Position numbers and translations under genes: made by a program. DNA of 64,000 nucleotides from a virus, in IMG/VR virus record IMGVR_UViG_3300003690_000055, positions 1 through 64,000 of that record. One strand, given 5' to 3'. Below, one piece after another: positions 34,623 to 41,916 of this stretch. Within the stretch, counting starts at the first letter, position 1. Every line of letters starts with the position of its first letter. The notes below the pieces were generated by a model. That model was not told where the DNA came from. It did not search any database and worked only from the letters and a program-made list of their open reading frames with translations.

Positions 34623-36878
34623 TTATCTATTCAGCGTAAACGGATCAACGCCCTCAAGTACATAATCCTTGATCTGAGAAACTGTGACCTGTTGCTTATT
34701 TTTATTTTGATCTTTCATAACGCCAAGATGGGACGCAACAAGATCTAATTTTTTATTGGTCTCATCGCGCTGTTTGGCCTGGGCATCCAAATCCTTTCTC
34801 GAAATTACCTCGCTTCCTGCGGGTATTCTAGCGTTAACCGTTCCGCCGACGGCATAACCTCTAATATATGGTGTGGCCGTGGCTTGCGTGCTTTGGCCGG
34901 CCAATATAATCTTTTCTTGAAAATTTCCTTCATTCATAAGAATTGGGGTTAAGGATCCTCCCCCCATAAGCGGTTCGGGTACAATTCCTCCAGCAAGAAA
35001 GCCTCTCCTGGATGCTTCTCCGGCCCTGAATTTTTTCTTTTCCTTTTCCTTTTTTTCTTCGCCGCCGAACTTCATGGCCAGCCCTCCTATGCCAGCCATA
35101 GCGAGAATACCCAGTGCCGCAATTGAAAAGCCCTGGAGGCCCGGAATGGCCATTGCAAGAGCTGCAGCGGCGAGGGCCGCGAAGACGAAGCCGGTCGCAA
35201 TAGCCCCCATACCAGATGTGATCTTACCGACCATTCCAGCAAAGGCCGAGAAGCCTTCGATCATAGGGAGAAGGACATTCGTTACAAAAGGTTCTGCATC
35301 AAGGAACATTTTCTTGAATGCGGTTCTCAGCTTGTCCATGATGGCCAGTGCTTTCTCAGCCTGTTCGTTTGCTTGTTCTCGACTTAATCGTTCGATCTCC
35401 AATTCTTCATTACTCTGAGACATTAACTTGCGCGTTTCTTCTGCGGATATCCCCAAAGCACTCGAGAATGCCAATAGCTCTGCGCCCGATAGATCTTCGG
35501 CTGATACCCCGGCATCCTCGAAAGCACTCTTGAGCATTTTAACGCCTTCTATCGGGTCTTCCAAGGAAGCATTCAACATATCAATAGAGTTCAGGTAGGG
35601 GCCGCCTAAAATTGCATTCAATCGGCCAACGGCTTGTCCTGCCGCATCAAACGTCTTAAATTTATCCATCAGTTCCAATAAAACATTAACTTCGGTTCCA
35701 GAAGCCTTTGCTGCCTTGGCTAGATCTTCGAAGACTGCCCCAGCACGGTCGCCATAGCGAACCAAAATTTCTTTATTTCTGACAAATTCCTGACCCATTT
35801 TTTTAACATCTATACCCAACGACTTTGCAGTAGCAGTAATGTCGAGCAAAAGATTTTGAGCACCTGACAGCGACATACCCATAGCTTTCGTGGCTGTTTG
35901 CATAATCTGGGCCTGGTCTTGCATCTCAAAGCCAAGCTCGGCCAAAACGCTCACAGTGGCGCCCAGTTCATCTTGAGTTTGCTGATTAAAATAAGTAAAA
36001 TCAGTAAAAGTATTCTTAAGTACCTGGGTGGCCGCGGCAGCTTCCTTAAAAGTCACGCCCGCACTACGACCTGCACGTTCTATGTTTTTTATTGTCTCGT
36101 TAAATTTCTCGCCGGCGCCTGTGGACTTTTCGAACTGTGAGGTAACGTTGTCTAATTCTATAGCATACTGTATAGATACGTCAAGCAGCTTCCACGTGAG
36201 GTCTTTGAGTAGCTGCGTCGGCTTCATGCCCTTCATAAAAGCCTTCCAATGTTTCGGACCCTTTGAGAGGAAGCCTTGAAGCTTTTGCATCGGACCGGAG
36301 AGACCCAAAAGTGAATTCGCCAACGCATCAAAGGCAAGTGAGCCGGCCTGTGAATCTTTGGCGCCCTCCTTAAGCGCGTTATTCATATCATCTAGAGCAT
36401 CAGCAGCACCCTGGATGTCACCGGCGGTGAGCAGGGCCATTGCTTTTGCGTGCGCAATCCTGGCCTTTGCATTCTTCTTAAGCGCGTCGACGTTCGCCAG
36501 CAAACTGGTTTTAAGCTTGGCGGCGCCGTCGATCTCAAGAGCGCGCCTTTGAGTGGCTTCTGTTAGAAATTTATCTCTCTTTTTTTCAGCTTTGGTGAGC
36601 TCTCTCTGCGCGACCCTGTATTCCGCCGTACCCGCGGTGAGCAGTAACAGATCGGCGGTCAGGGTAGTAACCTGATCATTGTATTCGTCGGCGGTCGCCT
36701 TCGCGGCTCGGAGAGCAACGTTTTGTTGCTTCAGGTTTTCAGCAACCTTTGCGGAGTTGGCGCCAAATTGCTCCAATTTATCTAAGAAATCCTGCGAAAA
36801 ATCTAGGCGGTCGATCTCCTCTCGAAGATCGCTCATCTCAATTTTAAGTCTAGCAATTTCTTCGGGGGTCAGTGCCAT
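34623..36878 (-). CDS. tail tape measure protein (gp29-like)
   Basis: Protein of 751 residues, mostly helical with coiled-coil character from the N-terminus (ARLKIEMSDLREEIDRLDFS). The central part has TAKSLGIDVKKMGQEFVRNK and FKTFDAAGQAVGRLNAILGG, typical of phage tape measures. A long hydrophobic Ala/Gly stretch follows near 570-610 (ATGFVFAALAAAALAMAIP, then GFSIAALGILAMAGIGGLAM) that could cross the host membrane. It sets tail length. The chaperone genes immediately upstream support the call. Confidence 0.88.
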   Translation of the reverse strand: MALTPEEIARLKIEMSDLREEIDRLDFSQDFLDKLEQFGANSAKVAENLKQQNVALRAAKATADEYNDQVTTLTADLLLLTAGTAEYRVAQRELTKAEKKRDKFLTEATQRRALEIDGAAKLKTSLLANVDALKKNAKARIAHAKAMALLTAGDIQGAADALDDMNNALKEGAKDSQAGSLAFDALANSLLGLSGPMQKLQGFLSKGPKHWKAFMKGMKPTQLLKDLTWKLLDVSIQYAIELDNVTSQFEKSTGAGEKFNETIKNIERAGRSAGVTFKEAAAATQVLKNTFTDFTYFNQQTQDELGATVSVLAELGFEMQDQAQIMQTATKAMGMSLSGAQNLLLDITATAKSLGIDVKKMGQEFVRNKEILVRYGDRAGAVFEDLAKAAKASGTEVNVLLELMDKFKTFDAAGQAVGRLNAILGGPYLNSIDMLNASLEDPIEGVKMLKSAFEDAGVSAEDLSGAELLAFSSALGISAEETRKLMSQSNEELEIERLSREQANEQAEKALAIMDKLRTAFKKMFLDAEPFVTNVLLPMIEGFSAFAGMVGKITSGMGAIATGFVFAALAAAALAMAIPGLQGFSIAALGILAMAGIGGLAMKFGGEEKKEKEKKKFRAGEASRRGFLAGGIVPEPLMGGGSLTPILMNEGNFQEKIILAGQSTQATATPYIRGYAVGGTVNARIPAGSEVISRKDLDAQAKQRDETNKKLDLVASHLGVMKDQNKNKQQVTVSQIKDYVLEGVDPFTLNR

Positions 36879-36889
36879 AATTTTTTATC

Positions 36890-37216
36890 CTAATTTTTAA
36901 AAGGCCAACGTAGGCCCGTTTCATTTTCAAACGCCTTGACCGCGGTCATCAAATCATGGCGGGATCCTAATGTTCTAGTATCACTTAATCCATGTTTCAT
37001 ATATGAATCCATATATCGTTTTTCTCGTTTAAGGGCGCCCATAAAAGAGTCAATTTGAGATTGCGTACCAACTAATTTTAAAGGGACATCCATTCCAGCA
37101 TAGTACAAATCCAACATTGCACTCTGTACTTTTCCAGCAAATTTGCTACGAGCCTGTTCATTCAACTTACTGTCCCGGTTGTTCAAATAAATTACATTTT
37201 TAACTAAATCGCCCAT
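36890..37216 (-). CDS. small protein between tail chaperone and tape measure
   Basis: Protein of 108 residues (LVKNVIYLNNRDSKLNEQAR, AGMDVPLKLVGTQSQIDSFM, RTLGSRHDLMTAVKAFENET), probably helical. It lies between the terminator at 37252 and the tape measure gene, with AGAGGACA upstream of the ATG. A chaperone or tube-tip role is possible by position only. Confidence 0.65.
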   Translation of the reverse strand: MGDLVKNVIYLNNRDSKLNEQARSKFAGKVQSAMLDLYYAGMDVPLKLVGTQSQIDSFMGALKREKRYMDSYMKHGLSDTRTLGSRHDLMTAVKAFENETGLRWPFKN

Positions 37217-37251: not shown

Positions 37252-37277
37252 AAAAAGCCGGAACTACTTGTTCCGGC
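37252..37277 (-). terminator. intrinsic terminator after the tail-chaperone region
   Basis: Minus-strand stem GCCGGAAC / GTTCCGGC with a 5-base loop and a following TTTTT. It overlaps the last codons and the stop (37264) of the frame-shifted chaperone extension. Confidence 0.8.
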
Positions 37278-37449
37278 CTTGTCGCTCAATTTCTTCGTTT
37301 TGGTTTTTAAATTCTTTAATTAATCGCTCAACAAACCAATGACGCAAAGGAATTGGCAAATTATAGGCTTCAAAGAGAGACCAGCCCCCGTGATGTTTTA
37401 AAACAAAGAACTCTTCATAGACTCCTTCTTGGTATTTAGGAGTTAGGCC
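37264..37449 (-). CDS. tail assembly chaperone extension (gp51-like) reached by frameshift from gp26-like gene
   Basis: A 61-codon frame with no ATG or GTG start, beginning just after a T7 run (37450-37456) in the last codons of the gp26-like gene. It encodes GLTPKYQEGVYEEFFVLKHH, GGWSLFEAYNLPIPLRHWFV and ERLIKEFKNQ, which looks like a conserved small tail protein. The frame is +1 (or -2) relative to gp26, so slippage on GAG TTT TTT TGG would fuse it to the gp26-like protein. This matches the G/GT-type chaperones encoded before tape measure genes. In T4, separate genes 26 and 51 lie at this place. Confidence 0.7.
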   Translation of the reverse strand, partial: GLTPKYQEGVYEEFFVLKHHGGWSLFEAYNLPIPLRHWFVERLIKEFKNQNEEIERQGRNK

Positions 37450-38290
37450 AAAAAAACTCTGCCGTCAAAGGCATTCCCACCTCTCCTTCGTGGTCACAGG
37501 AGTCACATGTAAACTCACAAGTAACATCCATATCTGGCTTGACTAGTTCATAAATTTTTCTAAGATATTTTACGTCTTGTAGTGGCATTTTTTCGGCAAA
37601 CTTCTCAATATCTTTTCCGTCGGTGTGGTCATTCACCGACACAATTACGCGCTTAAGCAGATCCGTGCTTCTTGTGTCCGGTAGTTTAAGTTTTTTCTTT
37701 TTTTCGTTAGTTTTTACCATCGCACGCTCATCTCTTGATGTCAAGAGCCTAATCTCAACGGTCACCCCTGTTTTCGGGAGACTGAACGTGAAGTTTTTAT
37801 CACTATTCATATCGACACCCTCGGGCAGTTCGGAAACATCGTTTACACCCAATTCTTCAAGGTTAAACACATTCTCATTTGTCTCACCACAAGAAGGACA
37901 TGTCACGTCTGTCTCATACAGGGGGCCAAAGCCGGTAATCCTTGAAGCAATCAACATTGCATTTTTATCACCGATCAACAAATCGTCTATTTTTATACTT
38001 TTATCGACAATAACCGACTCCAATAGCCTATTAATAGCGAGCCCCTTTCTCAGGAGCGACTCTGAAGTCAAGATATCCTCTTCTTTGGCTGTCATATGAT
38101 GTATTTCAATAACATCAATCCCAGCAAGAGGGTGCTCATCGGGATAAAAGCGCCCAGCACTCGGTAAATCCACAAATTCTGTGGGGGTTATGAATGAAAA
38201 TATGTCACTTGATTGGGCGATCGCGAGTGGTGTGGATGTGTCGTCGGGTGTCGGAGCTCCAAATCGCTCCGAATTTCTTTTTCTACCCAT
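37436..38290 (-). CDS. gp26-like baseplate hub / tail assembly protein
   Basis: Protein of 284 residues like T4 gp26: FVDLPSAGRFYPDEHPLAG, IEIHHMTAKEEDILTSESLL, two Cys pairs (VTCPSCGETNEN and CEFTCDSCDHEGEV) likely binding zinc, and the end MPLTAEFFWPNS. T4 gp26 is about 208 residues; this one has extra charged residues (TNEKKKKLKL). It assists hub and tape measure assembly. Its final codons contain the T7 slippery run leading to the gp51-like extension. Confidence 0.83.
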   Translation of the reverse strand: MGRKRNSERFGAPTPDDTSTPLAIAQSSDIFSFITPTEFVDLPSAGRFYPDEHPLAGIDVIEIHHMTAKEEDILTSESLLRKGLAINRLLESVIVDKSIKIDDLLIGDKNAMLIASRITGFGPLYETDVTCPSCGETNENVFNLEELGVNDVSELPEGVDMNSDKNFTFSLPKTGVTVEIRLLTSRDERAMVKTNEKKKKLKLPDTRSTDLLKRVIVSVNDHTDGKDIEKFAEKMPLQDVKYLRKIYELVKPDMDVTCEFTCDSCDHEGEVGMPLTAEFFWPNS

Positions 38291-38307: not shown

Positions 38308-38883
38308 TTACGGTTCCGCGGCGAAATCGACTGCAGGACCAGAACTATACAGAGCATAATCATACCGCATTCCGACAGTAATATTAAGTAATTCTGTATC
38401 ATTATCATAACTTAAGTCACCAAAAGTAGCCGTTGTAATCCAAGCGTTTATCAATTGCCATTCACCAACAAGGCCTCCCTCACCATTAAGCTCGCGAATA
38501 TTAACAAGCCCAAGAGCGTTAAGAGCATCCTTCTTGTTTGGGGTGCCAGGAGGACGATTAGCCAGGATAACATCTTCCTGGATGTCAGGACGTAAATATC
38601 CCATGTTGGCCAATGCATTCATAAGGAGAGCATTTCCATCTGGATTGATGGAGTTAACGATTACAGCGGACATCTCGTTCCATTCAACGCTACCGGGATA
38701 ATAAAAAGTATTTCCTAGGAACTTATGAGTCGCCTGGCCTACCGTGTAAGCTGGCTTTGTTACTGACTTAGCAAGATAAGTTCTATATGTAAACTTATCC
38801 TCTGCCGCGGCAATATTGGGAAGATCCAGTATAAATCTATGTGCTCTCTTTGGCTCCGATAGTGCGCTTGTCCAGAATGGCAT
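38308..38883 (-). CDS. tail tube protein (gp19-like)
   Basis: Protein of 191 residues: RAHRFILDLPNIAAAEDKFT, YLAKSVTKPAYTVGQATHKF, TFYYPGSVEWNEMSAVIV, LVGEWQLINAWITTATFGDL, and ITVGMRYDYA. These are hallmarks of T4-type tube protein gp19, which polymerises on the baseplate around the tape measure. It follows the sheath gene, in T4 order. Its late promoter is 30 bases upstream. Confidence 0.9.
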   Translation of the reverse strand: MPFWTSALSEPKRAHRFILDLPNIAAAEDKFTYRTYLAKSVTKPAYTVGQATHKFLGNTFYYPGSVEWNEMSAVIVNSINPDGNALLMNALANMGYLRPDIQEDVILANRPPGTPNKKDALNALGLVNIRELNGEGGLVGEWQLINAWITTATFGDLSYDNDTELLNITVGMRYDYALYSSGPAVDFAAEP

Positions 38884-38946: not shown

Positions 38947-41916
38947 TTAGTCGTCAAATGACGCTCCAGTTCTTGTAATATTAAAATCAATTGCTATAAA
39001 TTCGATGGCCCTTGTTGGCTTCAGGAAAATCCTGGCATATAGAATGTTTCTATCAATCAAATCTGGTGTAGTAGTCGTTTCATCGAGCACAAGTTTATAA
39101 TCAGATAAACCGAAATTTGTCTTGATATCAGCAAGAATTGGGCCGACCGCCGAGATGAATCGATTCCACGTTGTTTGAACGTTTGGATCGAAAAGAAGGC
39201 GCGATGCAACCTGTGAAACGCGCTTCTTCACAAAAATCATCAATCTACGAACGTTAATGCGATCCAGAGCAGACGGAGTAACCTGAAGTGTCTTTTGTCC
39301 AAAGATTACAATACCCTCTGCCGGGAACTTGGCAATTGGATTAATGTTCGCAGCGTAAAGGTCATCTCGATCCTTACGACGCAACTGGTGTGCCACATCA
39401 ACGATCGGAATGCCGGCGGAACCTTCAGTTAAACCACCGCGGTTAAATCCGGCAGGGGCAAACCACACCTGGGTCTTCTTCTGGGAACTTGAGAACGTAC
39501 CCAAAGCGGCGATGGACGGCGGAAGCCAAATCATGGCGCCATTGATCGTATCTCTTCCTCGAACCCACGGATAGAAGCAACAACCATAAGACGAATTGAG
39601 GCCTCGATCGCGCAGATTACTAATTACAGTCCTTAAATTAGACTCCGTATTATTTCTGGCAGACGAAGTGTCTTCTGCACGGGCTTTGTAGCCGCCGGCC
39701 AAGTCGATAATCGCAAGAGCATCAGCGCGGTCCTCGCAAACACGAAGCAGGCTTGTGGTCAAACCTTCCTGTGTAAGGCCCGGGATAGTGGCCAAGTTCA
39801 TCTCAACCACTTCTGGATCCGAAATAGAATCGATTGCCTGAAGAACAGAATTGAATGTATAACTATTCACAGGTGAAGGCGTACCGGTATCCCACTGGCT
39901 ATTTCGGAATGGCTCAAGTTCTGTGATGTCCAAGCCATCAAAGCCACCGTACAGTGGCACCGTGAAGCGGTCATATCCAGCATCTAGAACACCAGAAATT
40001 GCGCCGCTTACATTGGTCAAAGCAAGACCAGTCGCGTGGGAACCAGATCCCCAGAAAGCCCCGCCAGAGCCACTCGGGTCTATTCTAATGTCGTCCAGCG
40101 TAAAGAATACCGATCGTTCGGTGGCACTCGCAACCGGGGAGCTAAGCATACTTCCGACAGCCCCACCGCGCGGGCGGAGTAAGTCGATATTGGAGGCATC
40201 AAAAATCGTGCCACCTGTCGTCCTGGTAGTTTGGAGCCCAAAATAAGCATTTTTGGGAGTGGTCAAGTTACCGGCGGAGGCCGATACACGGAGCTCAGGA
40301 GCTGGGAATAAAACGTTTGTATTAAGAACGGAACCGCTCACAATGAACACTGAGGCGCTAGTAACAGTGACCAAACCTGCATTGATAGAGGCCCCGCTTC
40401 GTGGTCGACCAGTACCGGCTGAAGCAATTGTTGAAGTCGAACCAGTAACCCAATAACCGGCCTCGTCCGGACCGCCGCCGCCGCCGCTGTTGTCAATTGC
40501 AATCGCCTCATCCAAATATTTAATTATACCCTTAAAACCGAACGGCAGGAGCGTTGGATTGTCGCCAACAACATCTTCGTTCATAGCAATTCGAATGAAA
40601 TCAGATCGATTATTATAATCACCATAGTTGATATAACGTCTCTCGTCGGAATTCCACGAGTTATACTTGTCGCCGACCTTGCGCGCGACATAATTTAATG
40701 AATCCGGATTCAAGTTACAGTCGTTAAACTGTTCGACAACCTTAACAACATTGTCGGAATCGTCAAGTTTGCGAACTACAACCGAAAATGATCCGTAATC
40801 ATCAGACTCATTAGTTGAAACTTTAATATCTTGAATAGAAACTTTAAGATTACTATTTGTCCAGTCGCCGGGCTCGTTTAGGGCGTGAAGAGTAAACAAT
40901 ACAGGCATATCTGCGGGATTATAACCATTATTGGCTATTGGATCTCCATCGCCATGCGAAGCTGAGGTGCGCTGGACGGTGTCACATCCAATAATCGCCG
41001 GCGTTTGGGCATTTTGTAGTCCTACCCGGAAATCATCGCCGGCCCCCATTGTGGCTGCAGCGCCATTAAGATTTATCATCGCCGCAAAAGTACTTCCTGC
41101 GCTTCCTGTGATGTTGGCCTTTACATGACGATCAAATGTTTCCCCCAACCAATAATTCATTTCATTTTCAATAAGAGAAGAGTTCGTTCTTTGTGGAGTT
41201 GTATTGAACACCTTGCGAATATACTTTGAATCGTTAACATCAAAGTTAAAAACTGTCGTTTTGGGCTTACTGTTATAATCGACGTTATTAATAACCATCT
41301 TAAATTCCAAGGCCTTACCTGTGTCCCCCATAATAACATTAGAACCAGTTCCGGCTAGCCCGGAGCTGGATAAGGCGCCGGTCAGGTTAAAGTTACTGGC
41401 TCCTGCGGCGACCGTACCGCTTAATTGTAGAAGAGTGGCGGCCTCAGTTGTATAAAAAATTGCAGCAAGAGCTCCCTCAGCTTGATTGGTCGCAGTTCCT
41501 CGCTGATCGGGATGGAAAACCACGAGGCCCCAAGCATCTCCAGTTGAACCGGCGTCGAAGCCGGCTTTTCCACCGGAACCGTCATTCTTAGAATCTTGAC
41601 TTCCCAAAAGGCGAATGTAAGTTAAGGGGGAGCTGTTGCGAAGATAGGCTTGGGCTGCATATGCACCGTAAGATGGCGCAGCAACGTTCGCACCCTGGCG
41701 CCACACGTCGCCATTAGCGGTGCCGGGGACCGGGGCGCCAAAAACTTCTACAAATTCAGAAAACGAATTAACTGTAACTGGCCGTAACGCGGGGCCCTTA
41801 AGGGCGCGCCCTATAACAACCGGCCCAATTCCGGCCGGGGATGCGGGTATCTGGGAATTGTCAATCTCATTAACGAAAACTCCTGGTGATACAAATTTAA
41901 AATTTTTAACTGACAT
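38947..41916 (-). CDS. tail sheath protein (gp18-like)
   Basis: Protein of 989 residues, larger than T4 gp18 (659). The N-terminus FKFVSPGVFVNEIDNSQIPA with GPVVIGRALKGPALRPVTV is the sheath signature. The C-terminal conserved sheath domain includes VWFAPAGFNRGGLTEGSAGI, PIVDVAHQLRRKDRDDLYAA, NINPIAKFPAEGIVIFGQKT and INVRRLMIFVKKRVSQVASR. The extra length lies in the central variable domain exposed on the tail surface (GSTSTIASAGTGRPRSG region). It forms the contractile sheath. One late heptamer precedes it at 35 bases. Confidence 0.94.
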   Translation of the reverse strand: MSVKNFKFVSPGVFVNEIDNSQIPASPAGIGPVVIGRALKGPALRPVTVNSFSEFVEVFGAPVPGTANGDVWRQGANVAAPSYGAYAAQAYLRNSSPLTYIRLLGSQDSKNDGSGGKAGFDAGSTGDAWGLVVFHPDQRGTATNQAEGALAAIFYTTEAATLLQLSGTVAAGASNFNLTGALSSSGLAGTGSNVIMGDTGKALEFKMVINNVDYNSKPKTTVFNFDVNDSKYIRKVFNTTPQRTNSSLIENEMNYWLGETFDRHVKANITGSAGSTFAAMINLNGAAATMGAGDDFRVGLQNAQTPAIIGCDTVQRTSASHGDGDPIANNGYNPADMPVLFTLHALNEPGDWTNSNLKVSIQDIKVSTNESDDYGSFSVVVRKLDDSDNVVKVVEQFNDCNLNPDSLNYVARKVGDKYNSWNSDERRYINYGDYNNRSDFIRIAMNEDVVGDNPTLLPFGFKGIIKYLDEAIAIDNSGGGGGPDEAGYWVTGSTSTIASAGTGRPRSGASINAGLVTVTSASVFIVSGSVLNTNVLFPAPELRVSASAGNLTTPKNAYFGLQTTRTTGGTIFDASNIDLLRPRGGAVGSMLSSPVASATERSVFFTLDDIRIDPSGSGGAFWGSGSHATGLALTNVSGAISGVLDAGYDRFTVPLYGGFDGLDITELEPFRNSQWDTGTPSPVNSYTFNSVLQAIDSISDPEVVEMNLATIPGLTQEGLTTSLLRVCEDRADALAIIDLAGGYKARAEDTSSARNNTESNLRTVISNLRDRGLNSSYGCCFYPWVRGRDTINGAMIWLPPSIAALGTFSSSQKKTQVWFAPAGFNRGGLTEGSAGIPIVDVAHQLRRKDRDDLYAANINPIAKFPAEGIVIFGQKTLQVTPSALDRINVRRLMIFVKKRVSQVASRLLFDPNVQTTWNRFISAVGPILADIKTNFGLSDYKLVLDETTTTPDLIDRNILYARIFLKPTRAIEFIAIDFNITRTGASFDD

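Follow-up and report, generated by a model that had tools for sequence, protein, structure and literature searches.

The window, the whole 64,000-nucleotide stretch analysed here, comes from a 64 kb virus record that encodes a gp19-like tail tube protein, a sheath, a tape measure protein, a major head protein, a portal and a large terminase. The virus is a large myovirus and a distant relative of T4. Neither tRNA genes nor Rfam matches were found in the window. The order of the tail genes is sheath, tube, chaperone, one small gene and tape measure, which places the chaperone gene where that of a tail assembly chaperone (TAC) is expected. The gp26-like gene (37436..38290, minus strand) encodes the short chaperone, TAC-N, of 284 aa. 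On one side of it lies the tail tube gene (38308..38883, minus strand; PHROG 4542 tail tube, E 2.8e-13), the product of which is the expected partner of the chaperone C domain. On the other side is a small gene of 108 aa (36890..37216, minus strand) with no family match of note, followed by the gene for the tape measure protein (34623..36878, minus strand; PHROG 167 tail length tape measure, E 4e-7), on which the chaperone would be expected to act. The earlier reading of this DNA, made from the letters alone (the sequence-only reading), had likewise placed the tape measure gene after one small gene. The sheath protein has an unusual length of 989 aa (window 38947-41916), and its conserved sheath matches are in the second half.

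The 3' end of the gp26-like open reading frame reads GCA GAG TTT TTT TGG CCT AAC TCC TAA on the minus strand. The run of seven T residues is at 37456-37450 and the following GG at 37449-37448, so that the shift site, in the zero-frame codons TTT TTT TGG, occupies 37448..37456. The zero-frame stop, TAA, is at 37436..37438, 4 sense codons past the shift codon. In the +1 frame, the sequence past the T run (37264..37449, minus strand) reads GGC CTA ACT through to AAC AAG TAG, giving 61 codons at 37449-37267 and a stop at 37266-37264. Its translation is GLTPKYQEGVYEEFFVLKHHGGWSLFEAYNLPIPLRHWFVERLIKEFKNQNEEIERQGRNK. This frame is closed just 5' of the shift site by a TGA (37465..37467, minus strand), after which there are only CGG CAG AGT TTT TTT; there is no ATG, GTG or TTG in the extension frame of the window. 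The TGA and the lack of a start codon after it exclude an independent start for the extension here. All of this agrees with the sequence-only reading, which had described the GAG TTT TTT TGG gene end and a second frame of 61 residues with no ATG or GTG; TTG is absent as well.

A terminator-like hairpin overlaps the end of the extension (37254..37280, minus strand), with an 11 bp stem at 37280-37254 followed by T residues and a folding z of -4.1. The intrinsic terminator proposed earlier is thus real as a sequence feature. Of 151 relatives, 53 have a similar hairpin close to the stop of the extension. Lying between the chaperone gene and the tape measure gene, such a hairpin might uncouple the expression of the two.

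Identity of the chaperone and its extension

The zero-frame protein matches PF12322 (T4_baseplate, E 2.8e-15) and the PHROG 150 baseplate hub family. Structures were predicted from window and IMG/VR sequences only. The AlphaFold model of the zero-frame protein has a pLDDT of 85.6, and a Foldseek search with it finds many gp26-type viral proteins, with E values down to 6e-21. Of the 50 matches listed in a fold search of the PDB, the HK97 TAC (2ob9) is the most probable (0.57, the others being at most 0.12), with a TM score of 0.49 by target length and an E value of 0.64 that is non-significant alone. The match between this structure and the predicted model is supportive rather than conclusive. 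By profile and fold together, the gp26-like gene is a tail assembly chaperone gene.

The model of the extension is helical, with a pLDDT of 88.9. Its Foldseek match is the 53 aa Gp51 of Prochlorococcus phage P-HM1 (probability 1.00, E 0.11). When the +1 extensions of the window's relatives were compared by hhalign with the -1 extensions found in other T4-related phages, the probability was 82.9 with an E value, for a single comparison, of 9e-6. The profile of the -1 extensions in turn finds residues 200-244 of T4 gp51, at E about 5e-9 when 2000 shuffled sequences were added to the searched set. When compared directly, the window family and T4 gp26 and gp51 show weak sequence similarity, and the -1 families were required as intermediates to connect them. 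The first two thirds of T4 gp51 are related to gp26. On these comparisons, T4 gp51 is a gp26-like domain joined to a C domain at residues 200-244. The putative frameshift product would therefore be the counterpart of T4 gp51, and the short product the counterpart of gp26. A gp26-gp51 fusion had been suggested for this locus; the extension (TAC-C) is gp51-related, but it corresponds to only the last ~45 residues of T4 gp51 rather than to the whole protein. The locus has what the sequences suggest is a TAC pair, with a conserved C domain downstream, in another frame, to be fused by recoding. The extension (37264-37449) also has a weak Pfam match to DUF6760 (PF20546), at E 0.012 and under the cut-off, which may point to a broader family of C domains.

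Conservation of the shift site and of the extension frame

Relatives were drawn from IMG/VR, GenBank phages and GTDB genomes, and clustering at 90% protein identity gave a non-redundant set of 121. The extension is in the +1 frame in 165 of the 166 loci where one is detectable, the exception being the distant jumbo phage LR756511. Among the 121 non-redundant relatives, the shift site is TTTTTTTGG in 112, TTTCTTTGG in 5 and TTCTTTTGG in 4, with the same frame relation throughout. The search of homologues for a conserved T run and frame relation that the sequence-only reading had proposed thus came out in favour of both. YTT T is present at the site in 121 of 121, the A-site codon is always UGG, and the zero frame always ends 3-7 codons past the shift codon. 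TTC is the second site codon in none of 116, and 21.6% of Phe codons elsewhere in the chaperone genes are TTC (naive P about 6e-13, with shared ancestry ignored). Recurrence of the site and its frame relation in 121 relatives clustered at this identity is, as far as sequence comparison goes, more than chance would produce.

Past the site, a sequence holds about 4.5 stops in the zero frame and none in the +1 frame. Across 28 sequences the extension read in the +1 frame has pS 0.82 and pN 0.25 (pN/pS 0.30); across a set of 8 sequences the values are 0.66 and 0.15 (pN/pS 0.23). These ratios indicate that the extension is under purifying selection, in the +1 frame only. Its conservation starts right at the shift site. 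An extension in frame with the gp26-like gene, which had been named beforehand as evidence against a frameshift, was looked for and is present in none of the relatives in the window's clade. By comparison of sequences, then, the frame relation, the conservation of the site, the coding selection in the extension and the family identity can be regarded as shown.

Relatives of the gp26-like protein also occur in sequences labelled as bacterial. The 306 kb contig NHDW01000006.1, from the Methylococcaceae MAG TMED69, has the same gp26-like match near both ends (L094, L095); this might represent a circular jumbo phage genome, assembled with overlapping ends and binned as bacterial. In CP070664.1 a relative with 46% identity is located at 2762491-2771258 (L093), in a 2.8 Mb contig labelled as candidate division WOR-3, where it may belong to a prophage or stem from misassembly.

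Probable programmed +1 frameshifting and its alternatives

It is very probable, on the comparative evidence, that two chaperone isoforms are made from this one gene through programmed +1 ribosomal frameshifting. A programmed frameshift linking the gp26-like gene to the extension had been proposed from the window, and the frame, the site and the selection seen in relatives now argue strongly for it. Most ribosomes would translate GAG-UUU-UUU-UGG-CCU-AAC-UCC and then meet the stop codon, producing TAC-N. A minority would slip +1 with the second UUU (tRNA-Phe) in the P site and UGG (Trp) waiting in the A site. The slipped tRNA-Phe would re-pair on the overlapping UUU, GGC would be decoded next and 61 codons would be added to make TAC-NC (...AEFF-GLTPKYQE...). 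If the roles are like those in lambda G/GT, TAC-N would bind the tape measure protein, and tail tube subunits would be recruited through the C domain of the longer isoform. What the variants of the site appear to have in common is YUU_U at the P site, with UGG next in the A site. In the TTC TTT TGG alleles, full re-pairing in the forward direction is possible at the second codon only (UUU to UUU), which is the codon proposed here to slip; the TTT CTT TGG alleles could alternatively shift at the first UUU, with re-pairing on UUC.

No conserved stimulatory RNA structure was found, RNAalifold predicting no pairs across 26 sequences, and nothing stands out in the window's own folding around the shift site (z -1.3). 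Nor is there a conserved Shine-Dalgarno-like motif next to the site: the consensus directly 5' of the site is ACN GCN GAC, with no purine-rich motif. Since there is no conserved stimulator of either kind, a useful rate of shifting is an assumption.

The same frame would be reached, with one extra Phe, through a programmed -2 shift. The sequence-only reading, which left the choice between +1 and -2 open, had named phage Mu as a -2 case. On a pure run of seven T residues the P-site tRNA could re-pair two bases back with no mismatch. However, the 4 non-redundant relatives with TTC TTT TGG keep the frame relation, and by the rules of pairing a -2 slip would there bring tRNA-Phe onto UCU, where the middle base does not match. 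Because these natural variants and TTT CTT TGG keep the frame relation, the ambiguity resolves towards +1, and a -2 shift is considered improbable. The same alleles bear on transcriptional slippage, in which mixed mRNAs would yield both products by standard translation. A homopolymer of seven in 112 of the 121 relatives would suit such slippage, but in the other 9 the run is interrupted, with the frame relation and YTT TGG kept. Since TTT CTT TGG and TTC TTT TGG hold at most 4 T residues in a row, transcriptional slippage is unlikely.

There is little chance that the extension is a separate small gene, translated independently or by coupled reinitiation, despite its being annotated as such in several phages, such as Mel-JY01 and the cyanophages with their gp51. 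A start codon of its own had been named in advance as evidence against a frameshift, and in some non-redundant relatives the extension frame does contain an ATG, GTG or TTG a short way upstream of the site. Against this, in 47 of the 121, as in the window, no such codon occurs in the stretch from the preceding stop to the conserved GL motif, and conservation runs from the shift site onward. Homopolymers are error-prone and the window is from a metagenomic virus record, so the gene could in principle be continuous, with the T run misread in sequencing or assembly. That explanation is not tenable, because the run and the frame relation recur in L010, an independent contig with 97% aa identity, and in considerably more than a hundred other records. 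The same relation is present in all 121 relatives, including the alleles without a homopolymer, and the genomes of the isolates Flavobacterium phage immuto and Microcystis phage Mel-JY01 agree.

Probable direction of the shift among T4-related phages

Programmed +1 frameshifting, the preferred reading for the window, is not the direction suggested by all related phages. In 12 of the 12 relatives read from the T4 and cyanophage side the extension is in the -1 frame; these are P-HM1, S-PM2, Melnitz-1, Cr30, Astolliot, PG216, Ahp1, V45v66, RHph_Y68, BUCT608 and the Vibrio phages 1.255.O and K355. Most of them have a classical heptamer, GA[T TTT TTC], TC[T TTT TTC] or a close variant. The extension is +1 in the window's lineage, in the Microcystis and Flavobacterium phages and in SP-15, LIS04 and GXN1. 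Some distant +1 relatives have UUU_C sites: TTT TTT CAC in SP-15, TTC TTT CGT in GXN1 and AAC TTT CTA in LR756508. The LIS04 site, TTT TTT AGT, is a poorer fit to the YUU_U or UUU_C pattern.

In the window the T run starts on a codon boundary (GAG TTT TTT T), and so in-register -1 tandem slippage is barred without a mismatch and +1 slippage is allowed. The X XXY YYZ register and -1-frame extension of a tandem site are both absent from GAG TTT TTT TGG and its +1 extension.

A tree of TAC-N has a 100/100 branch that parts a side of 28 rows, including all 26 of the +1 rows, from a side of 14 rows, which holds T4 and the other -1 rows. Three changes on this tree account for all three labels. The jumbo phages XacN1 (GC[T TTT TTT]) and LR756511 (GG[T TTT TTC]) have a -1 relation and fall on the +1 side, in a placement that is insecure from long branches. 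These sites (XacN1, L008 near 6735; LR756511, L007 near 6700) are possible reversals of direction.

Taken together, it is reasonably likely that a large T4-related lineage uses +1 shifting at YUU_U or UUU_C, that the T4 and cyanophage lineage uses -1 tandem shifting to reach a homologous C domain, and that T4 has a separate gene. The +1 lineage would include marine viruses like that of the window together with Flavobacterium, Microcystis, Streptococcus, Bacillus and Listeria phages. On this reading, it is the phasing of the T run with respect to the codons that sets the direction, so the decoding mechanism would have changed while the protein architecture remained fixed.

Among individual records, SP-15 (L006, 6807-7006), LIS04 (L009, 6708-6939), GXN1 (L005, 6729-7000) and immuto (L003, 6720-6943) each have a +1 frame that runs without a stop over the gp26-like gene end. 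In these four records the chaperone extension is unannotated or a truncated small open reading frame. In Mel-JY01 it is annotated as a separate gene.

Comparison with known systems

Lambda G/GT is alike in having a short and a frameshifted long chaperone encoded before the tape measure gene. Its shift is -1 whereas that of the window would be +1, and the likeness is one of arrangement. According to Atkins et al. 2016 (PMC5009743), chaperone frameshifting of the lambda type is conserved among long-tailed phages, with T4 as the exception. In the haloarchaeal myovirus HSTV-2 the counterpart shift is likely to be +1 (PMC5009743, PMC8211752), as proposed for the window; this is an archaeal virus, likened by direction alone.

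Closer parallels to the site itself are found outside tail genes. The +1 site of prfB, encoding RF2, is CUU_U, or UUU_U in a minority of species (PMC5009743). There a P-site YUU slips +1 onto UUU, and the window has the same YUU_U. In prfB, however, the A site holds a UGA stop and a Shine-Dalgarno stimulator is about 3 nt upstream, whereas the window has UGG and no adjacent stimulator. In influenza A PA-X, the site is UCC_UUU_CGU, of the UUU_C class that was shown to be +1 by mass spectrometry (PMC3498833). A +1 slip of tRNA-Phe is common to both systems, and UUU_C also occurs in the window's distant relatives GXN1 and SP-15. PA-X is, however, an unrelated gene of a eukaryotic virus, with UUU_C rather than the UUU_U of the window. 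The window site is thus a candidate UGG-paused YUU_U +1 site, lacking a stop codon or obvious stimulator, with natural variants at hand.

The nearest systems are those of the T4-like phages, the chaperones of which were reportedly identified by Vladimirov, Gautam and Davidson in 2022 (Virology 566:9-15). Their abstract is said to describe frameshifting as conserved in several T4-like groups, with T4 using genes 26 and 51, and the work is said to have closed the T4 exception for T4-like groups. With TAC frameshifting in T4-like phages reported in 2022, this kind of system was already known. So far as the abstract and the citing texts describe them, those chaperones are like that of the window in belonging to the PF12322 (gp26) family, in their place before the tape measure gene, in their short and long isoforms and in their poly-T shift site. 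The citing passage of one paper gives the poly-T sites in T4-like TAC-N genes as -1 (PMC12846349, citing Vladimirov et al. 2022), whereas the frame relation in the window is +1. According to a passage in another, some T4-like phages have separate genes for a short and a fused long chaperone (PMC10885494, citing Vladimirov et al. 2022). In the cyanophages P-HM1 and S-PM2, gp26 and gp51 are homologous to TAC-N and TAC-C and there is a T-run shift site at the end of gene 26, but the frame is -1 and the site T TTT TTC, against +1 and TTT TTT T in the window. In T4, gp26 is of the TAC-N type and gp51 combines a gp26-like domain with the C domain; the two genes are without a frameshift, where the window would have one frameshifted gene. 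That T4 has separate genes 26 and 51 at this place, as the sequence-only reading had it, is correct as to their being separate, but they are divergently oriented and not simply side by side.

Subject to the content of Vladimirov et al. 2022, what appears to be new is the +1 direction in a large lineage and the occurrence of opposite directions within one homologous family. The homologous chaperones of a single phage superfamily would thus reach the same fusion via opposite shift directions, or have separate genes, and they make up a naturally occurring set in which the determinants of recoding direction and rate could be studied.
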